Shown here: positions 2,683 to 15,447 of the stretch, in pieces | Numbering within the stretch: the stretch's first letter is position 1 | Layout of the letters: each line of letters opens with the position of its first letter | Origin: a virus | DNA length: 30,001 bases | Strand: one strand, 5' to 3' | Virus record (IMG/VR): IMGVR_UViG_3300046820_000420 | Location: 1 to 30,001 of that record | The notes under the pieces: model-generated | What the model was told of the DNA's origin: nothing | What the model saw: only the letters and a program-made list of their open reading frames with translations | The model's database searches: none | Translations under genes and position numbers: made by a program

Positions 2683-3350
2683 GAGTAACATTTGATGATA
2701 AGGCATTTATGAAAGATCTTAATAACATTATCAACTATTCTTATGGATTTCTTGATGGTGTTCAAACAGGTAAACGCAAACTATATGAAAGACTTGGCCC
2801 AGAGATTGTAGAACTTGCTGCACAATACGTAGATGTAAATGCAAGAGTTACGCCAGAGTTACTTCACCACATATATGAATGGGGCAAGGCAGGAAGTCCA
2901 AAGGCAAGACTATTTGATATAGATTACAAGATAAGTAATATTGGAATAACTTTTACGACAGCATTAAAGCAATCAACATCTATTAAAGATGGGTCAAATG
3001 TTCCATTTTATGACAAGGCAACAATAATGGAAAAGGGCGTTGCTGTAACTATAGTTCCTAAGAAGGCTAACGCATTGAGATTTGAAATCGATGGCGAAGA
3101 GTTTTATTCAAAAGATGGAGTTACAGTTGATAATCCTGGAGGACAAACCAAAGGACAGTTTGAAAAGGTTATAGATGAGTTTTTTGGAATATACTTTAAG
3201 CAGTCATTTTTAAAGTCAAGCGGTTTGCAAGATCACTTTAGAAGACCACAAGTATTTAAGAAAAATATTAAAGCAGGCAAAAGAGGTGGAAGAGGTCTTG
3301 GTAGAAAGATTGGCCATGACTGGGTAGCAAATGCAGGGATGGCATCATAA
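2679..3350 (+). CDS. probable neck / tail completion protein
   Basis: 223 residues, start in an ATGA overlap with the preceding gene. The N-terminal half is helical (DKAFMKDLNNIINYSYGFLD; LYERLGPEIVELAAQYVD), followed by a beta segment, and the C-terminus is strongly basic (FKKNIKAGKRGGRGLGRKIG). Proteins of about this size with a helical first half occur between head closure and tail terminator genes in many siphoviruses, including HK97 gp10-like tail-completion proteins. The basic tail could contact DNA or another neck ring. I do not recognise a diagnostic motif, so the call is positional. Confidence 0.5.
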   Translation: MRVTFDDKAFMKDLNNIINYSYGFLDGVQTGKRKLYERLGPEIVELAAQYVDVNARVTPELLHHIYEWGKAGSPKARLFDIDYKISNIGITFTTALKQSTSIKDGSNVPFYDKATIMEKGVAVTIVPKKANALRFEIDGEEFYSKDGVTVDNPGGQTKGQFEKVIDEFFGIYFKQSFLKSSGLQDHFRRPQVFKKNIKAGKRGGRGLGRKIGHDWVANAGMAS

Positions 3351-5804: not shown

Positions 5805-5831
5805 ATGAAAATTGTCAGACGTCAATGCTAA
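5805..5831 (+). other. eight-codon mini-ORF overlapping the tape measure start
   Basis: An ATG at 5805, four bases after the purine run AAAAGGGGG (5792-5800), opens a frame encoding MKIVRRQC that ends at TAA 5829-5831 and overlaps the TTG start of the tape measure gene. The ATG is spaced better from the ribosome site than the TTG. It could lower tape measure initiation, or it could mark a one-base assembly error in the AAAA run. Confidence 0.35.
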
Positions 5832-8800
5832 TATAGGCATAAATATAAACACGGCTGACGCCTTAGCACAACTAAGAACACTTCAGGCTGGTTTAAGCAA
5901 ATTTCATCAAACACTTGCTCAAGGAAACCTTGCAGCAACAAATGCACAAAAGGGTCTTAATGCACAACTTATCCAGTCAGTTAATGCGACTGGAAAGTTT
6001 GCTGCATCTCAGGTAAAGGTAGCAACAAGTACTCAGGCGTTTACATCTGCGCTTGAGAAAAACAAGTTAAGCATGGGGCAGTACTTTAGGTACACCGCTG
6101 CTGCTGCAACAGCAAACACAAAGTCTTTAACAAATATGTTTGCTCAAGAGCGTGAGATTATTAACCGTGCCCGTAGAGATAGAGTCAAGGCTTTACAGAC
6201 ACAATACGTTCAATTACAAAAGGCCAATGGTGGCTTTGCTGATGCAATAAAGATCATGCCAAAAACGCTGATGATGGCTAATGGCCAGTTTACAGAACTT
6301 GGCACAAGAATTCAGTATGCTGCACAAAGACAGCAATTTTTAAATCAGTTACTAAAGCAAGGTTCTACACAACTTCTGAACTTTGGTAAGAATACGCAGT
6401 GGGCAGGTCGCCAGTTGATGGTTGGTTTGACAATGCCTTTAGCAATGCTTGGATCATATGCAGCAAAGGCTTTCAAAGAAATGGAAGCAGCAGTAATAAA
6501 GTTTGAGCGTGTATATGGTGATGCTTTTACTGATAGCGCAGCAACAGATGTCGCAGTTGAAAATATTAAAAGAATTGCAAACGAGTACACAAAGTTTGGT
6601 GTTAGCGTAACAGAAACAATGGAGATGGCAGCAACCGCTGCTGCTGCAGGTTTCCAGGGGTCAGCACTTAATGCTCAGGTAAGAGAAGCAAACAAGTTAG
6701 CAGTCCTTGGTCAGGTTGAACTACAACAGGCTCTAGATACAACAATATCTTTGCAAAATGCCTTTGGTCTTTCTACTGAAGAACTAGCAAAAAAGATTGA
6801 CTTCCTTAACGCAGTTGAAAACCAAACAGTATTATCTATTGAAGATCTAACAATTGCAATTCCTAAAGCAGCACCAGTTGTAAAGCAACTTGGTGGAGAT
6901 GTTGAAGATCTTGCATTCTTCATGACTGCAATGAAGGAAGGCGGAATCAACGCATCAGAAGGCGCTAACGCATTGAAGTCTGGTCTTGCTTCTATGATTA
7001 ATCCAACTAAGAAAACTTCTGAAATGCTTGCAGCAATGGGCATTAATATCAAGGGTGTTGTAGAAGCAAACAAGGGAGACCTAAAGGGTACTGTAGTTGG
7101 TTTTGCAAGAGCGCTAGATGAATTAGATCCACTAAACCGTGCAAGAGCAATTGAACAACTTTTTGGAAAGTTCCAGTTTTCAAGAATCTCAACATTATTT
7201 CAGAACGTTGTAAAGGATGGGTCACAGGCATCTCGTGCACTTCAATTGTCTGGTGCATCACTAGAAGAACTAGCAATCATCTCTGAACGAGAAATGGGAA
7301 AGATTGAAGATTCTGTTGGAGTAAAGTTCCAGGCAGCGGTAGAGCAATTCAAGCAAACAATTATGCCAATAGGAAAAGAGTTCCTAGAAGCACTAACACC
7401 AATTATAAAATTTATAGGTGGATTATTTGAAAAGTTTAATAACCTATCTGACGGAACAAAGAAGTTTGTAACTGTAATTACAGCAGTTGTAGCAGGCATT
7501 GGCCCAATCTTCCTTATGACATTTGGTTTGCTTGCTAACGGTCTTGCAAACTTGATTAAACTTTTTGCATTAATCAGAGGTGGAATGGCAAAGTTAAATG
7601 GCCAAAACAAAATGCTTGGCGGAGGTTTTGATTATTTAACTCAGCAAGAAATCGAAAACCTATCATCATCTAATGCATTGCATGGATCTCACCAAAGACT
7701 TATTCAGGTATTTAATGTTGAAAGCGCATCGCTGCAAAAACTTGCGGGTTCATATGCAAATGCAGCATCACAAGCAAGAGCATTGGCAGCATCCTCTCCT
7801 GGACTATTTGCATCTCCTGGTGCCACATCTGCAGTATCTGGTTTACCTGGAGGAAAAGGTAAGCCAGTTAAAAAGTATGCAGGTGGAGTTTTACAGGTTC
7901 CAGGTCCAAAGGGTGCAGGAGATATTCAACCAGCACTGCTTGCTCCAGGAGAAGCGGTTATACCAGCGGATGTAACTGCAAAGAATATTGGATTCCTACA
8001 TGCAATGATGGATGGAAAAATTCCAGGACATATGGCAGGAAAACTTCCAGTAAGACCAGCATTCCACGCAAAGCCAGATGAGCAGCAATCAGGTGCCAAG
8101 TTCCTTGGTATGCCAAAGTCAATTGCGGAAGTAACACAGTCAAGACAGATTGCAGATAAAATTTCTGAGGCGGTTGCAAAGAGTCAGTTTGGCAAAGTTC
8201 CACCAACAGATTTTGGAACACTTATACAAGGAACATCTGGAAGAAGTTTCCCTATTCCAAATGTTGGCGGTATATACAGAAAGCCAAATGGAGAAGTAGT
8301 ATTCGTTAAACCAGCAGTAGATGCAACCTCTGCACTTGCGGAGGAACGTGCAACAATTATTGCAAGAAAAGCACATGGACTTAAGGCACCAGAACAAACA
8401 ATTAAAACAATGATGGATCCAACAGATCTCACTGGAAAAAGAAAGTTAATTGTACTTGAGTCACCATATGATCCAAAATTAGCAGAAGCAAGTGGTAAGT
8501 TCACTAAGAAGCAAATGGTAACACAACTTGTTGCATCACTTCTTCGTGGAGATAAAGATTTGTCTAAGTCTAATGTTTTTGGAGGAACCCTAGCAGACGT
8601 TGGTCCAGCAGGAGTCTTTGGTAGAGCATCAGGGTTTAGAGAGATCCAGCCACAAATGCCTTCTATGCAAGATCAAGCAATGATTAATCTTTTGGGTGTA
8701 AAGGGTGGAGCACGAAAAGACTTTGCATTATCTACTGCAGATATAGCAAAGAAGATGACACCACAAGAGTACAATGCTGCAGTAAATGGAGAAATTAACA

Positions 8801-11800
8801 GAGTTCTTCCAAAATTAAAGAAGACTATTGCTGGAATGAACTTACCTGCAGATGAGGCTGTTCCATACAATGCAATGATTGCTCGTCTTGAAGCAGGCAG
8901 AAGTGTTCAGTGGGATCAGTTCCAAAAGATCCACGCAGCAGCAGGATCCCCAGTTAAAAAACTTTCTACTGGCGTTCTTCCAGAATTAACCCCAGCACAG
9001 AAGAGTCAGTCACAAGTTGAAATGCAAAAGTTTTTTGATTGGGCAGATCAAAGAGTTAAAGACTCACAACTGGCACCTGAATTTAAGGGTAGATGGGATA
9101 AATCAACAGGTGGTGCATTTAGACAAAGCCTTATGGAAAAGATGGTTTACGACGCATCTACTGGAACATTCTGGACTAATCAGGGTGGAACGAATGGAGT
9201 AAGCCTAGAAAGAATGAAGGAGCGATTTGAGTATCGCTTTGGAATAAGTCCAGATCCAAAAACTGGTAAGTATGTAAAGTCTAACCTATTCAATATTAAT
9301 AAATTTTTAAGCAATGTAACTTCTGGTGGTGCATCTAAAAAGGGTGGAGACATACGGACAAATAATCCAAAGGCAGCAAAAGTTTGGGACGAAGTTAAGG
9401 CTGCAGCAGCAAATCCAGGAGGAATAAAGTCTGACACAACAATAAGAAAGTATGTAGACTTCCTTGCAAACATGAAGGATGCAAATGGTAAGCCAACTGA
9501 GTTAGCCCAAGGACTTACTTCAAAAAGTCTTAAGGCTCGCAAGGCTGCTATGGAGCAAGTTGATAAGATGTTTAAACTTGATGCATCCCATGCACAGGCA
9601 GTTAGAGTATATGATAGTTTAGAAGATGCAGCAGCAGGAAAATCAAGACCAGCAGCAAAGTCAGAAAAGTATTCTGCTGGAGTAATGGGTCCAGACTATA
9701 GAGTTGTAAATGAGTATGTAAAAACAAATGACCCATCACAAAAGAACAGATTCCAAGAAATTCTTGATTGGAATAATAAAAAAGGCAACCCACTTAATTT
9801 AGATAACGCACAGACTACAAAAATTCAGGCTGCTATTCAAGCAATCATGAAAGAAGAGAATCACCCATTTGAGCCAAAGAATCAGAAGCATGTAAAGGCA
9901 CTTGCAGAACTTGAGGTACTGGCAAGAGATACAGTTGCTAAAAATCCATCACTTGGTAAGGGTTTAAATATAAGTAAAAATCCTAATTCATACATGAACG
10001 CAAGACTAGTTCAAGAGATCATGTCTCAGAGAGTTGCAGACTCAGGCTGGTTTAAGAGAATGAATGAAAACAAGATGTTTATCAATACAGACATACTTGA
10101 TGAAAAGGGAAGACCAACTCGTGGTGGATTAGAAACTGTAAGAAAAACAGAGTACTACCGTGATCCAGTTACTGGAAAGTTTATTCCTTACACTGGACAA
10201 AACACTCTTCCTGTTTCTACTGGTAAGGTAACAAACAAAGGAACTGAAACTAGAACTCCAGATACTACAAAGACTGGTGGCGGACCAACTGCAACAAAAT
10301 CACAAGCAAAAACTTTTGCTATAAAAAGAGAAAAGGGCGATCCAAGATTCCAGGTAGCAGAATCAGGCTTAAGCAAGGCAGCCCAAGGAAGAGTAACAAA
10401 TGCTGTTCAAGAGCAAGCAAGACTACTAAAGTTAAGAAATAATTTAACAAGAGATGAAATCAATCAGGCTCTTGCATTATACAAAAAGAGAGTAGTTGCT
10501 GCTGAAGTAGAAAAAAGCAATACTATTGCACAAGAAAAAAGAATGCGTGAGCAAGCAAAAGCCGAGCAAGCACGAGTAGTAAGCGCTAAAGATGCTGCAA
10601 AGCAAGAAAAAGCAAATAAGAGAATGGCTCGTCAGGAAAAGGTTGGAAGATATTCTGGAGGAGCGGGTGCAGCACTTGGTGGTATTGCCATGGGCGCAAT
10701 GATGACAGGGGCCGACTCTAAGGTCACTGGTGGTCTATTTGCGGCCTCCGCAGTTGCTGGTATGGCTCCAATGCTAACTAACCCATATGCAGCAGCAGGC
10801 ACGGCTGCAGTGGCTCTTGCTGCTGGTTTGTTCATGCTTGATAAGTCTGCAAAGGCAGCAGCAGAATCACAATCTAAACTAGTTGACTCCACATTTGCAA
10901 CAACAGAAAAAATGAAGTCTATTGGAGAACTTACTGGAAAAGTTGGGGCTTCAGAAATATATGCACGAAAGAGATCAACATCTGTATCAGACAGATACAC
11001 AACAGGATTTGAAAGAGGAAAGCAGCCATTTGGATCTACATTCTTAGAAAATGAAGCAGGCAAGGGAATCATGTCTACATTTGTTGAGAACATGAAGTCT
11101 GGAACTGATACAGCAGCAAGACAAATGGCAGTTCAATTATCTGGATATGTTTCAGATGGAGTTATGACTGCAGAGCAAGCACACAGTGTTGCAAGTCAAA
11201 TCGGAATTAATTTAAACAATCAAACACTTACTTCTCAAATAAGTGGACAGTTGTTAGACCTCATTGGTCCATCTGGAGAAGACCTACTAAAGAATCCATT
11301 AGAGGTAAGAGTAAGATTAGTTGAAGAACAACGAGATTTATCAAAGTCTGCTACAGATCTTTTTGCAAAAGATATGCAGGCTTATTCAAAAACATTTGGA
11401 GATCAAAGCGGTGGCTTAAATCTTGGAGTTTCAGATTATTCTTGGGGAGAGTTGTTTGGTCAAACTGGATCAGAAAAACTTGCATCACAAACTGCAGCAA
11501 TGGGTGCACAAAACTTAGAGTTTAATCAAGCACAAATCGACTCACTGAATCTTCAATATGATAAAGAGTTAAAGATACTTGAAACTCAAAAAGCAGCAAC
11601 AGCAGATGCTGCAAAGAGAAAATTAATAGATGATCAGATTTCTGCACTAGAAACCAAGAGGGCAACAGGGGTTGAGGCTTTAAGAAAGACGAACAACGAA
11701 ATATTAAATGATCAACTTGCTGCATTTAAGATTGCACAACAAAGAAGCGCAGTAGAAGATGCATTCTTTGACTCGCTTAAAGATCAGGTAAGAACAAAGT

Positions 11801-14800
11801 ATAAGGGAACAGCCCAAGAAGCATTTGTAGATCCATTGCTAAAATCTACAGCAAAACTAGAAAGCAAAGAGTTAGAGGTTAAGGTAAATACCATAGTTGC
11901 TTCAGGCCAGATGCCTCCAGCAACAGCAAATGCACTTTTAGAAATGTTTGCTGGTGAAGAAACAGAACTAGACACATTTATTAATACAACAACACAGTTG
12001 CACGACCCAGGCAAGGTTGCTGAGTTGGTTAACTCACTTGGTGGAATAAAGAATAAGAAAACTGCTAGAGATATTATTACTAAGATTACAAGCAAAGATC
12101 CAAAAACAGCAGACAAACTTATGTCAACCGTTGCACTTATGCAAAAAATGGCTGGTAAGGAAATCAACATTCAGGCGTTCTTTGAGCAAGAAGATGCTAT
12201 GACAAAACTTGAAGATCTTAAAGACGAACTTGAAGAAGTTGAAAAAATGCCAACACCAATTACAAAAGAAGCAATTGCTAAAGTAGATACTGACGGAGAT
12301 GGCACAGTAGAAAATATGGATGCCTTGCTTGCGGTATGGGATCAATGGGGCAACCTTCCAGATGAAACAAAGAAAACTGTTGTTCAGGAATATATTACTC
12401 TGCTAAGGACAATTACAGAAGGTGATATCGATGCAGAAATTGCAAAGCAAAAGGCTGCTGCACCTTCTCAAATGGGTTCATATTACGATGCAAAGTCTAG
12501 CAACCCCGCTGCAAGAGAGCAAGTCAAGTCGCAACTAGCAGCAGAAAGAACAATGCAAGCAACTAAGCAAGCCATTGCCTCTGCTAAAGCAAACAAACTT
12601 GGAGATGATTCAAAGAATGGATCAAAAAAGGCTGACCCAATTAATGATATTTTAAGAAGATTAAAGGAAGTTAGACTTGCATCTCTAAATGCAGCAGGAG
12701 GAATTACAGAATTATTTAAGGCTGTTGGAGATGGGAAAAAGGTTAAGGGCGTAATTGGAGATGTCTTTAATGGTATGCAGCAGCAACTAACCAAGAAGGG
12801 CGCAAACCAACAGTTTATTGATTTCCTAACATCTATGATTGGCGATCCTGCAGAACTTGGTAAGTACATGAAGACTGCCACAAAAGCAACAAGTGGAAAA
12901 AATAAGGGCAAGGTTGTAGATCCATTTACTGGTAAGGTAATTAAGGGCGGTAAGGTTGGAGATGTTGTTCTATCTGATAATGCAAAGGCAGCACAAGCAG
13001 GACTAACTAAGGCAATTGGTGGAGAATATAACGCAGCACAACTTAAGGCAATTACAAATGATAAAGACCGTGCAAAGGTTATGGAGAGAATTACCACATT
13101 AGCAAAGACAAATAATAAGTTTGTTATTGATAATGCAACCCTACAAAATATTCTAAATGATGAATACTATGTAACTGAACTTGCTGCTGGAAGAATAACA
13201 GATGCAGAATTTGAAACAAATACTCAACTTGCAAAGCAGGCAGAACTAAGACAAAAGATTAATGGTATTGTTACAGAAGGCTTATCAGCAGGTCAAGAAA
13301 TTGCAGACAAGGGTAGAATTGGAGAACTTCTCAAGTTTATGAAGGAGACAACTGATCTGCCTAAGTTGTCTGAAAATGCATTGCTTGACATGATTAAAGA
13401 TCCAAACCAACTTTCTGCAGCCATCGCTGCAATGGATATGTATAAGACTGGTATTGAGAAGGTACCAGCAAGTTTACAAAAGGTTGTAGATGGACTTAAC
13501 AATGTTCAAAAGAATGCAAAGATTCAAGGGTACATAAACTTTGCATCACAAACAGTACCACAAAAGATATCTCAGGGTGCAGCCTCAGCACAGAACGTTT
13601 TGAGTGTAAAGGCAAGACTAAGAGAAAGAATGAGCATCTCTGAACTAAGAAAATATGGAACTAAGGCAAATCCTAATATGGGAGAAACTGCATATCAGAA
13701 TGCAGTAAAGGCTACTGGGGGTGCACCACTTACTGGTGGAGGAAAGAGTTTAAATCAGATTCAGGTTGCTCGTCAAGGTCTTGCATCACAAATGAATTTG
13801 GTTCAGGCACGAGCAAATCAAATACAAAGAGAAATTTCTGCAAAGGAAGACGAATTAAATAAGGCAATAGATGATAAAAATAAGTACTATGATAAACTTA
13901 TAGATACAGAAAAGGATCTTATTGAGGCTAATGAGTCTAAACTTAAAAAAGAATTTACAGACCTTATTGATACAAAGCAAAAGGAATCAAACAAGTTAAG
14001 CAATGACCTTGCAATAATTAACCATCAAGAAGAAAAAATAAATGAAGTTTACGATGAAAGAATTAAGGCTTTAACAAAGACACAGGAAATAAATCAAAGA
14101 CTTATATCTCAGCAGCAAACTCAACTTGGACTTGCAGATGCAATAACACAGGGTGACATTGCTGCAGCAGCACAGGCTGCTCAAGAAATGAGATCTCAGA
14201 ATGCTGCAGCCTATGCAGAAGATACAACTAATGCGCTAACTCAAGCACGAGATAACCAGATTAAGGGGCTTAGAGGTGCAGAGTCAGGAATGACTAAGGC
14301 ACAAATTAATGAGCGTCAATATCAGATATCACAAGAAATTTATAAACTTGAAACAAATCCTGCACGTCTTGCAATCGTTGCAGCAATTGAAGCATCACAA
14401 GCAAAGATTACTAAGTATGAAAAGGACAGGTCTATAGAGATTGATGCAATTAATGCTAAGTATGCAACAGAGATTGCTAATCTGAATACAGCACTTACAA
14501 CACAGAACAATATACTTAGCGCTTTAGAATCACAGGATGCAGCACTTGCTGCACAAGAGGCAGAACTATTGCTTATTCTAGATAGTTTGGCAGATATGGA
14601 TGACCTTGCTGGTAAAACACTAAAAGACTTTGAGGATATGGTTCTTAAGGCTGAGGCAATGGCAAGTGCACTAGAAGAGGATATTGTTCAGGCAATGATG
14701 GCAATAGAAGCAGACTCTGCGTCCGCTGCTGGTTCTTGGACTAGCATCCTAGACTCAATAAATGCTCTTCCAGAATCAATAAGCATTCAAAGCATTATTA

Positions 14801-15447
14801 ACGAGGTTAGAAATATAACTGAGCACATTACACGATACATCAAGACCATTTATGAGGATGGTGGATCTGACGATAGTTCTGATAGCAGTTCAAGTTCTTC
14901 AACTAAAAACACAACAACTAAGAGCCCAACTACTGCTCCAACAACTAAGGCTACTGGAAATACTGCAGCAACAACATCTTCTCCAAGTTCATTGGCTTCA
15001 AAAGAAAACGGTTTAATTGGAGCAGCATCTATGGCTGCAGCAGCAGCAGCAAAAGCATCTGCAGCACTGGCAGCAGCAGGTGCAAAATCAAATACAGCAA
15101 AGAACAATCTTAGCGGTGGTTCTTACTTCTCCTCTAATTGGACTGGTAAGTCTTCTGGAGGGCTAATACCTAAGTACTTGGCCGCTGGTGGTTTTGCTAA
15201 AGGAACAGACATTGTTCCAGCAATGCTAACACCTGGAGAATTTGTAATGAGCAAGTATGCTGTAGATACCTATGGTGTTGATAGAATGAAGGCAATTAAT
15301 TCTGGATCAGACAATTCTTCAGCAGTGTATAATTATGAGTTAGTAGTAAATGTTAAGTCTGATGCCAATGCAAGTGATATTGCAAATACAGTAATGGCTA
15401 AGATTAAGCAGGTAGACGATATGAGATTAAAGGGGAATAGATTCTAA
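5812..15447 (+). CDS. tail tape measure protein, very long, with extra modules
   Basis: 3211 residues, the largest gene here. The TTG at 5812 is the first possible start, since TGA closes the frame at 5806; the resulting N-terminus, MSDVNANIGININTADALAQ, fits tape measure proteins. Residues about 220-500 form the TP901/PhageMin-type core, followed by a hydrophobic stretch near 553-590. Residues 685-1530 hold modules separated by PVKK(Y/L)xxGV(L/M)-like linkers; one resembles a kinase fold (about 815-945). A charged coiled coil precedes a Gly/Ala-rich hydrophobic segment at 1616-1676. An EF-hand loop lies at 2159-2170. Long coiled coils cover 2670-2770 and 2820-2950, then a Ser/Thr-rich linker (3016-3060), an Ala-rich helix, and a GG...GTDIVPAMLTPGEFVM motif at 3116-3146. 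At roughly 1.5 angstrom per residue it would imply a tail near 480 nm if fully extended, so globular insertions are likely. Confidence 0.93.
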   Translation: MSDVNANIGININTADALAQLRTLQAGLSKFHQTLAQGNLAATNAQKGLNAQLIQSVNATGKFAASQVKVATSTQAFTSALEKNKLSMGQYFRYTAAAATANTKSLTNMFAQEREIINRARRDRVKALQTQYVQLQKANGGFADAIKIMPKTLMMANGQFTELGTRIQYAAQRQQFLNQLLKQGSTQLLNFGKNTQWAGRQLMVGLTMPLAMLGSYAAKAFKEMEAAVIKFERVYGDAFTDSAATDVAVENIKRIANEYTKFGVSVTETMEMAATAAAAGFQGSALNAQVREANKLAVLGQVELQQALDTTISLQNAFGLSTEELAKKIDFLNAVENQTVLSIEDLTIAIPKAAPVVKQLGGDVEDLAFFMTAMKEGGINASEGANALKSGLASMINPTKKTSEMLAAMGINIKGVVEANKGDLKGTVVGFARALDELDPLNRARAIEQLFGKFQFSRISTLFQNVVKDGSQASRALQLSGASLEELAIISEREMGKIEDSVGVKFQAAVEQFKQTIMPIGKEFLEALTPIIKFIGGLFEKFNNLSDGTKKFVTVITAVVAGIGPIFLMTFGLLANGLANLIKLFALIRGGMAKLNGQNKMLGGGFDYLTQQEIENLSSSNALHGSHQRLIQVFNVESASLQKLAGSYANAASQARALAASSPGLFASPGATSAVSGLPGGKGKPVKKYAGGVLQVPGPKGAGDIQPALLAPGEAVIPADVTAKNIGFLHAMMDGKIPGHMAGKLPVRPAFHAKPDEQQSGAKFLGMPKSIAEVTQSRQIADKISEAVAKSQFGKVPPTDFGTLIQGTSGRSFPIPNVGGIYRKPNGEVVFVKPAVDATSALAEERATIIARKAHGLKAPEQTIKTMMDPTDLTGKRKLIVLESPYDPKLAEASGKFTKKQMVTQLVASLLRGDKDLSKSNVFGGTLADVGPAGVFGRASGFREIQPQMPSMQDQAMINLLGVKGGARKDFALSTADIAKKMTPQEYNAAVNGEINRVLPKLKKTIAGMNLPADEAVPYNAMIARLEAGRSVQWDQFQKIHAAAGSPVKKLSTGVLPELTPAQKSQSQVEMQKFFDWADQRVKDSQLAPEFKGRWDKSTGGAFRQSLMEKMVYDASTGTFWTNQGGTNGVSLERMKERFEYRFGISPDPKTGKYVKSNLFNINKFLSNVTSGGASKKGGDIRTNNPKAAKVWDEVKAAAANPGGIKSDTTIRKYVDFLANMKDANGKPTELAQGLTSKSLKARKAAMEQVDKMFKLDASHAQAVRVYDSLEDAAAGKSRPAAKSEKYSAGVMGPDYRVVNEYVKTNDPSQKNRFQEILDWNNKKGNPLNLDNAQTTKIQAAIQAIMKEENHPFEPKNQKHVKALAELEVLARDTVAKNPSLGKGLNISKNPNSYMNARLVQEIMSQRVADSGWFKRMNENKMFINTDILDEKGRPTRGGLETVRKTEYYRDPVTGKFIPYTGQNTLPVSTGKVTNKGTETRTPDTTKTGGGPTATKSQAKTFAIKREKGDPRFQVAESGLSKAAQGRVTNAVQEQARLLKLRNNLTRDEINQALALYKKRVVAAEVEKSNTIAQEKRMREQAKAEQARVVSAKDAAKQEKANKRMARQEKVGRYSGGAGAALGGIAMGAMMTGADSKVTGGLFAASAVAGMAPMLTNPYAAAGTAAVALAAGLFMLDKSAKAAAESQSKLVDSTFATTEKMKSIGELTGKVGASEIYARKRSTSVSDRYTTGFERGKQPFGSTFLENEAGKGIMSTFVENMKSGTDTAARQMAVQLSGYVSDGVMTAEQAHSVASQIGINLNNQTLTSQISGQLLDLIGPSGEDLLKNPLEVRVRLVEEQRDLSKSATDLFAKDMQAYSKTFGDQSGGLNLGVSDYSWGELFGQTGSEKLASQTAAMGAQNLEFNQAQIDSLNLQYDKELKILETQKAATADAAKRKLIDDQISALETKRATGVEALRKTNNEILNDQLAAFKIAQQRSAVEDAFFDSLKDQVRTKYKGTAQEAFVDPLLKSTAKLESKELEVKVNTIVASGQMPPATANALLEMFAGEETELDTFINTTTQLHDPGKVAELVNSLGGIKNKKTARDIITKITSKDPKTADKLMSTVALMQKMAGKEINIQAFFEQEDAMTKLEDLKDELEEVEKMPTPITKEAIAKVDTDGDGTVENMDALLAVWDQWGNLPDETKKTVVQEYITLLRTITEGDIDAEIAKQKAAAPSQMGSYYDAKSSNPAAREQVKSQLAAERTMQATKQAIASAKANKLGDDSKNGSKKADPINDILRRLKEVRLASLNAAGGITELFKAVGDGKKVKGVIGDVFNGMQQQLTKKGANQQFIDFLTSMIGDPAELGKYMKTATKATSGKNKGKVVDPFTGKVIKGGKVGDVVLSDNAKAAQAGLTKAIGGEYNAAQLKAITNDKDRAKVMERITTLAKTNNKFVIDNATLQNILNDEYYVTELAAGRITDAEFETNTQLAKQAELRQKINGIVTEGLSAGQEIADKGRIGELLKFMKETTDLPKLSENALLDMIKDPNQLSAAIAAMDMYKTGIEKVPASLQKVVDGLNNVQKNAKIQGYINFASQTVPQKISQGAASAQNVLSVKARLRERMSISELRKYGTKANPNMGETAYQNAVKATGGAPLTGGGKSLNQIQVARQGLASQMNLVQARANQIQREISAKEDELNKAIDDKNKYYDKLIDTEKDLIEANESKLKKEFTDLIDTKQKESNKLSNDLAIINHQEEKINEVYDERIKALTKTQEINQRLISQQQTQLGLADAITQGDIAAAAQAAQEMRSQNAAAYAEDTTNALTQARDNQIKGLRGAESGMTKAQINERQYQISQEIYKLETNPARLAIVAAIEASQAKITKYEKDRSIEIDAINAKYATEIANLNTALTTQNNILSALESQDAALAAQEAELLLILDSLADMDDLAGKTLKDFEDMVLKAEAMASALEEDIVQAMMAIEADSASAAGSWTSILDSINALPESISIQSIINEVRNITEHITRYIKTIYEDGGSDDSSDSSSSSSTKNTTTKSPTTAPTTKATGNTAATTSSPSSLASKENGLIGAASMAAAAAAKASAALAAAGAKSNTAKNNLSGGSYFSSNWTGKSSGGLIPKYLAAGGFAKGTDIVPAMLTPGEFVMSKYAVDTYGVDRMKAINSGSDNSSAVYNYELVVNVKSDANASDIANTVMAKIKQVDDMRLKGNRF
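7864..9699 (+). repeat. repeated linker motif delimiting tape measure modules
   Basis: Three dispersed copies of a related motif occur in the tape measure: PVKKYAGGVLQVPGP at residues 685-699, PVKKLSTGVLPELTP at 1047-1061 and EKYSAGVMGP at 1285-1294. The first continues into GAGDIQPALLAPGEAVIP, and a related GG...GTDIVPAMLTPGEFVM lies near the C-terminus (residues 3126-3146). The copies divide residues 685-1530 into blocks of about 350, 235 and 235 residues. The PA.L.PGE.V element is common in tape measure proteins; its role is unknown to me. Confidence 0.6.
8251..8655 (+). other. candidate HipA/PI-kinase-fold domain inside the tape measure
   Basis: Residues about 814-948. In order: GGIYRKPNGEVVFVKP, whose K833 could be the ATP-binding lysine; an EER helix with E844/E845 and HGLKAPEQT, resembling the lobe after the alpha-C helix; LIVLES as a hinge-like strand (879-884); RGDKDLSKSN with D916 and N921 five apart, the same spacing as D309 and N314 of HipA; and ADVG with D929 as a DFG-like metal ligand. 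The usual histidine of the D-x-H-x-x-N loop is replaced by S918. All of this is motif reading; the fold is inferred. Confidence 0.45.
12286..12321 (+). other. EF-hand / dockerin-like calcium loop inside the tape measure
   Basis: Residues 2159-2170 read DTDGDGTVENMD, matching D-x-D-G-D-G-x-V-x-x-x-D with ligand positions 1, 3, 5, 7, 9 and 12 all acceptable (D2159, D2161, D2163, T2165 backbone, E2167, D2170). It is followed by a helix (ALLAVWDQWG). Only one loop is evident; a partner loop was not found nearby. Confidence 0.65.

Follow-up and report, generated by a model that had tools for sequence, protein, structure and literature searches.

The tape measure protein (TMP) of a phage occupies the tube of the tail and is expelled as the DNA enters the cell. 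The injected phage enzymes known so far are mainly head-borne or separate virion proteins, and the extra enzymes found in TMPs are usually cell-wall hydrolases; the additional segments that TMPs may bear include peptidoglycan hydrolases and Rpf-like motifs, their substrate being the cell wall. In lambda, labelling places the TMP at the inner-membrane complex ManYZ while the genome is being injected (PMC13190303). TMP-like effectors of contractile injection systems (Tme, Sle1) have interchangeable functional domains that are delivered through the tube, and remarks in the same publication also give precedent for extra functional segments in TMPs; these particles, however, are contractile, bacterial and not infecting phages, and that publication reports no kinase domain in them (PMC13277306). 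T7 provides known cases of phage kinases modifying host proteins. Such kinases have been proposed for polyvalent proteins too, large proteins whose kinase domain is suggested to target host proteins upon entry and is described as being of Hanks type, with the whole C-terminal subdomain lost and the catalytic His kept (Iyer et al. 2017, PMC5512222). Kinase-like motifs are likewise encoded among the head/tail genes of two haloarchaeal viruses, in neither case in a TMP: the gene for HSTV-2 gp16 (L167:10647-12119) lies between the head and tail-tube genes and that for HHTV-1 gp13 (L168:9436-12738), a protein of 1100 aa, two genes before that for a (Mu) gpF-like head protein. At the annotation level, phage virion-module proteins with kinase domains are already known; no report of a kinase in a TMP was found in the open-access literature. 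What is new here is a distinct kinase family dedicated to TMPs and exchanged as a cassette.

In the window, i.e. the whole stretch of 30,001 nucleotides that was analysed, the ORF at 5812-15447 (on the plus strand, like all features given below; TTG start) encodes a protein of 3211 aa with both the core domain (residues ~1-600) and the tail-gene context of a TMP. PF10145 (PhageMin_Tail) matches residues 261-452 in a Pfam search (E=1.8e-28) and phrog_10030 (tail length tape measure) matches the protein in a PHROGs search (E=5.8e-96), with PHROGs tape measure families spanning residues 1-680, and the gene order is the same as in Streptomyces phages such as Wakanda and StarPlatinum. A kinase-fold domain sits in the variable middle of this protein. 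It had been placed by an earlier note at 8251-8655 (residues 814-948), and the residues quoted there were all found at their positions in the ORF; that interval covers the core, but the full domain is larger, with a fold of residues ~780-1045 (8149-8946, as delimited by AlphaFold2 and Foldseek) inside a cassette of residues ~745-1055 (8044-8976). Shortly before the domain, at 7903-7965 (residues 698-718), there is a motif GPKGAGDIQPALLAPGEAVIP, and a similar one, GTDIVPAMLTPGEFVM, is found near the C-terminus of the TMP (residues ~3127-3146). Four other loci (L016, L021, L048 and L070) have a copy of the GPKGAGDIQPALLAPGEAVIP-type motif directly after the kinase domain, and the motif may mark module borders.

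Structure prediction of the fragment 780-1045 with AlphaFold2, given an alignment of 44 viral relatives, produced the two-lobed kinase fold that the earlier note had anticipated, with a mean pLDDT of 93.7 and a pTM of 0.91 (the five models span 88.9-93.7). In fragment numbering, the predicted N-lobe has strands at 24-28, 41-44 and 50-56, the third of which contains K833 (fragment residue 54, in VFVKP; codon at 8308-8310), correctly assigned to a β-strand by the note, followed by a long helix at 59-74 with E844 (fragment residue 65; 8341-8343) and by further strands at 84-89 and 99-106. LIVLES (8446-8463), which had been described as hinge-like, closes strand 5 together with the hinge ESPYD that continues it. 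After a helix at 120-133 come the loop RGDKDLSKSN (8545-8574), two short strands, DVG (8596-8604) and a helical C-lobe, so that RGDKDLSKSN lies between a helix and two short strands immediately before ADVG. A second model, of the divergent relative L110 (~54% identical to the window, with DLHGGN in the loop), reached a pLDDT of 92.0 with the same layout. The order of elements in both models (E-E-E-H-E-E-hinge-H-loop) is that of a protein-kinase-like two-lobed fold, the L110 model being only a partial replicate because much of the alignment is common to both predictions.

Foldseek comparison with the PDB returned, for each model, only kinase-fold proteins or complexes containing one among the 50 matches listed, including CtkA, SidJ, the MAP kinases JNK and p38, HipA, Golgi casein kinase (Fam20-type), FN3K and GAK. 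Among the matches listed, each is individually weak (best E 3.5e-3 and 4.1e-3, TM ≤0.40, high rmsd), and the argument for a kinase fold rests on the specificity of the list and not on any single score. By probability the best of these is CtkA (0.94-0.98), a HipA-family kinase, with HipA itself (3dnu) at 0.77, and the one with the lowest E-value is SidJ, a pseudokinase acting as a glutamylase; non-kinases also occur on the kinase fold. In the viral library there are five matches below 1e-3, the best being a fusion with an HK97-type portal (E 1.7e-5, TM 0.54), and PI3K/PI4K-annotated proteins of tailed viruses appear further down (~1e-3). Both families to which the note had likened the domain are represented, HipA among the PDB matches and PI3K/PI4K-annotated proteins among the viral ones. 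Judged from these models, residues ~780-1045 almost certainly have a kinase fold.

Conservation was read from 229 matching loci, which contain 132 distinct domain sequences down to ~40% identity. K833, R912, D914, D916 (codon at 8557), N921 (8572) and D929 (8596) are invariant in 132/132, E844 is kept in 130 and G931, of the DVG motif equivalent to DFG whose D929 would be the metal-binding aspartate, in 128. The strand-3 lysine, the helix-C glutamate, the catalytic aspartate with an asparagine at +5 and the metal aspartate that characterize the kinase fold are all in place, and the four residues singled out in advance (K833, D916, N921 and D929) proved to be without exception conserved. Of the pair E844/E845 only the former is conserved, E845 being mostly replaced by Q or V. 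The occurrence of the motifs is not due to chance. E883, S884 and P885 are invariant as well in the alignment of 44 sequences. The usual loop histidine is indeed replaced by a serine (S918) in the window, but over the 132 sequences this position is variable (S 46, Q 38, G 23, K 15, A 5, H 5), and the canonical histidine was seen in one clade only, that of L110 and L111 with the loop RGDRDLHGGN, a clade that is placed differently in trees of the kinase and of the TMP core. R912 and D914, four and two residues before D916, give an R-x-D-x-D arrangement that is not known from other kinase families.

By sequence the domain belongs to no named family, its predicted fold and motifs being those of a HipA/PI3-4K-type kinase, and it is reasonable to place it in the neighbourhood of HipA and PI3/4-kinases. 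The likeness to these two groups put forward in the earlier note holds for fold and motif layout but not for membership of either at the sequence level. HipA/CtkA proteins (Helicobacter pylori CtkA and the HipA/HipT Ser/Thr kinases, PF07804) have the K...E...D-x4-N...D layout in common with the TMP domain, and K181, D309, N314 and D332 of HipA are invariant among the seven HipA proteins that were aligned. A profile-profile comparison with these seven was not significant (E 0.4), the segment that was aligned pairing D309/N314 with D916/N921, and filing the domain under HipA was rejected on this ground; PF07804 (HipA_C) had no match in the 44 members, a search of the record being negative too. 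The two also differ in that the catalytic aspartate is 23 residues from the metal aspartate in HipA and 13 in the TMP domain, in that the histidine of the HipA D-x-H-x-K-N loop is present only in the L110 clade and replaced by S/Q/G/K/A elsewhere, and in that the TMP domain, carried within a structural protein, has no HipB-type antitoxin gene as a partner, no accompanying gene having emerged from the comparison with a kinase-less relative (L088, below). For PI3/PI4 kinases, PF00454 had no match at E≤10 in the 44 members, and the counterparts of their motifs D-R-H-x-x-N and I-D-x-G are R-x-D-x-D-L-x-x-x-N and D-V-G in the TMP domain, with DLHGGN in one clade and a register shared with HHTV-1 gp13. 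The two haloarchaeal proteins, which are PI3/PI4-kinase-like and belong to the viral fold matches, come close to this clade, the motifs of HHTV-1 gp13 (GNRDIHGGN...VDNG) and HSTV-2 gp16 (GNDDRHYGN...IDSG) resembling the RGDRDLHGGN of L110/L111. The family profile matches HHTV-1 gp13 with E=0.0012, pairing K, E, D and N, and 0/200 shuffles did as well, and HSTV-2 gp16 has a sub-threshold match to PF00454 (E 1.5e-5; 25.5 bits, the cut-off being 27.1). Outside the kinase core, neither protein has any relation to the TMP. HHTV-1 gp13 also contains HExxH-like stretches (HEMAH) that are suggestive of a metallopeptidase. Unlike the kinases of polyvalent proteins (PMC5512222), the TMP domain has a predicted helical C-lobe and mostly lacks the histidine, which places it outside that group.

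Searches with a single sequence and with the profile gave no family match in Pfam, PHROGs, NCBIfam or PDB sequences; matches to AOC_like and orange carotenoid protein were rejected as scattered chance matches. No real relative was found by tblastn with three different members against the 50,697 phage records of INPHARED, nor any relative in one scan of cellular genome contigs. The carriers are a large group of uncultured siphovirus-like phages. All 207 of the 5'-complete ORFs bearing the domain have a TMP core upstream, and no standalone copy was seen, in a sample that comes from kinase and TMP queries and in which linkage was not demanded for the kinase queries.

The kinase domain is missing from many of the 80 loci most closely related in the TMP core. 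The TMP of one of them, L088, shows 90% identity to that of the window in residues 1-765 and 65% in 1040-2420, with the flanks joined without a kinase: reading the junction in the DNA, MAGSIPELSPA in L088 corresponds to MAGKLP...[kinase]...GVLPELTPA in the window. The stretch absent from L088 measures 933 bp (8044-8976), i.e. 311 codons in frame, and its edges are marked by a 7-bp repeat, CTTCCAG, at 8044-8050 and 8977-8983, two copies that are 933 bp apart and the only ones in 7991-9000. Excision between these repeats would yield the L088 arrangement, which is suggestive of such a mechanism. The empty site in L088 is most simply a loss, because L088 falls inside a kinase-bearing clade. There is a second kinase-less TMP within the kinase-bearing clade, that of L102, where part of the downstream region is gone too. 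For 23/23 window genes that were checked, syntenic counterparts are present in the L088 contig, and a partner or antidote gene was rejected for this pair since L088 has all of them without the kinase. On a tree of 101 TMP cores, the presence and absence of the kinase needs seven changes, at least six of them forced by strongly supported branches. The tree of the kinase is unlike that of the TMP, L110 being near the window by its TMP core and elsewhere by its kinase, and holding the TMP clade together in the kinase tree was rejected (p 0.02, with the caveat of long branches). The distance from the TMP core to the kinase falls into four broad classes (~160-230, 400-520, 670-850 and 920-990 residues). 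The kinase domain is a self-contained movable cassette that is gained and lost as a unit. TMP length with and without the cassette does not differ significantly, so no ruler or spacer effect is seen, and since Pfam detected no alternative enzyme where 20 kinase-less TMPs have the equivalent region, we do not claim that cargo enzymes form a polymorphic set.

When the window was compared with six near relatives, dN/dS was 0.10-0.13 in the kinase, indicating purifying selection. This is similar to the TMP core (0.05-0.09) and to the linker before the kinase, and values in the variable region after it (0.13-0.29) are generally above. In blocks of 50 residues over 30 relatives, identity is 45-68% in the kinase (a figure inflated by the choice of loci via the kinase) and 7-21% in residues 1050-1600. 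The hypervariable stretch at 8962-10612 (residues 1051-1600) follows right after the kinase, yet is 65% identical in L088; in 20 kinase-less relatives the equivalent stretch gave no Pfam domain.

The domain is likely to be catalytically active. Going by the conserved residues, K833 together with E844 would position ATP, D916 would be the catalytic aspartate and site of phosphotransfer, and N921 and D929 would be the metal ligands. Since the tail tube is filled by the TMP, which leaves it with DNA entry, the domain is most likely virion-borne, within the TMP, and exposed at entry. A kinase, in contrast to the TMP segments that act on the cell wall, requires ATP and hence the cytoplasmic face; with ATP available only in the cytoplasm, the enzyme would work in the cell that makes the phage or, once injected, in the next one. 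That it is fused to the ruler protein and to nothing else speaks for injection. We consider it probable that the domain is a HipA/PI3-4K-like (non-Hanks) phosphotransferase that is carried in the tail and acts in the newly infected cell. It would come to lie on the side of the membrane where ATP is present as infection starts and would phosphorylate a host (or phage entry) target, aiding establishment; both delivery and target are inferred by us. More tentatively, with chances a little short of even, the TMP would be a delivery arm for an exchangeable enzyme, the kinase entering with or just before the DNA and phosphorylating a host target before phage expression. Candidates for this target, proposed just as tentatively, would be components of an early defence, of a membrane complex or of translation. 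A folded domain of ~270 aa may or may not fit into the tail tube of a siphovirus and pass through it; the domain may travel in unfolded form, or may not travel.

The same enzyme, made late along with the products of the tail genes, could instead work in the producing cell, phosphorylating host or phage proteins, or the TMP, during assembly and ahead of its packaging into the tail, its location in the virion being incidental. The TMP is synthesised in an ATP-containing cytoplasm, late expression would give many copies and the sequence has no sign of translocation, all of which would be consistent with this scenario. However, a late cytoplasmic role would need no fusion to the ruler, which is difficult to reconcile with the finding that 207/207 5'-complete carriers are TMPs and with the lack of any standalone copy seen, and we regard it as unlikely. 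The kinase-fold enzyme could also have a chemistry other than protein phosphorylation, namely AMPylation, glutamylation or the phosphorylation of a small molecule or lipid, and here the lowest-E PDB match listed (SidJ), the PI3/4K-like phage proteins among the viral matches and the unusual catalytic loop R-x-D-x-D-L-x-x-x-N with its extra invariant R912 and D914 have to be set against a D916-x4-N921...D929 spacing that is the ordinary arrangement of phosphotransferases and an alignment of HipA D309/N314 on D916/N921 (not significant by itself). This balance leaves us quite doubtful of another chemistry.

Two further explanations dispense with catalysis. A catalytically dead remnant of the fold could have a structural or binding role only, for example as a plug, a ruler spacer or a receptor-side binding module, given that a structural protein harbours the domain and that the group includes TMPs that manage without a kinase. 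But pseudokinases lose their catalytic residues, whereas here these are the most conserved positions over 132 sequences, and TMPs with the cassette do not differ significantly in length from those that lack it, which makes a purely structural role improbable. The idea that the motifs are a look-alike on something other than a kinase fold draws on the lack of a sequence family match and on E-values above 0.001 for the PDB matches. It seems scarcely tenable in view of two confident models, of listed top 50 matches that comprise only kinase-fold proteins and of motifs that are all invariant and in the correct order.

Buried as it is within structural proteins of great length, this kinase family escapes annotation pipelines. 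A kinase fold that is confined to TMPs, and present or absent between syntenic phages, offers a direct test of whether enzymes are delivered into the cytoplasm by the TMP, and of the way in which a folded domain gets through the tube of the tail. Phages with the kinase cassette may send an enzyme into the bacterium alongside their DNA.
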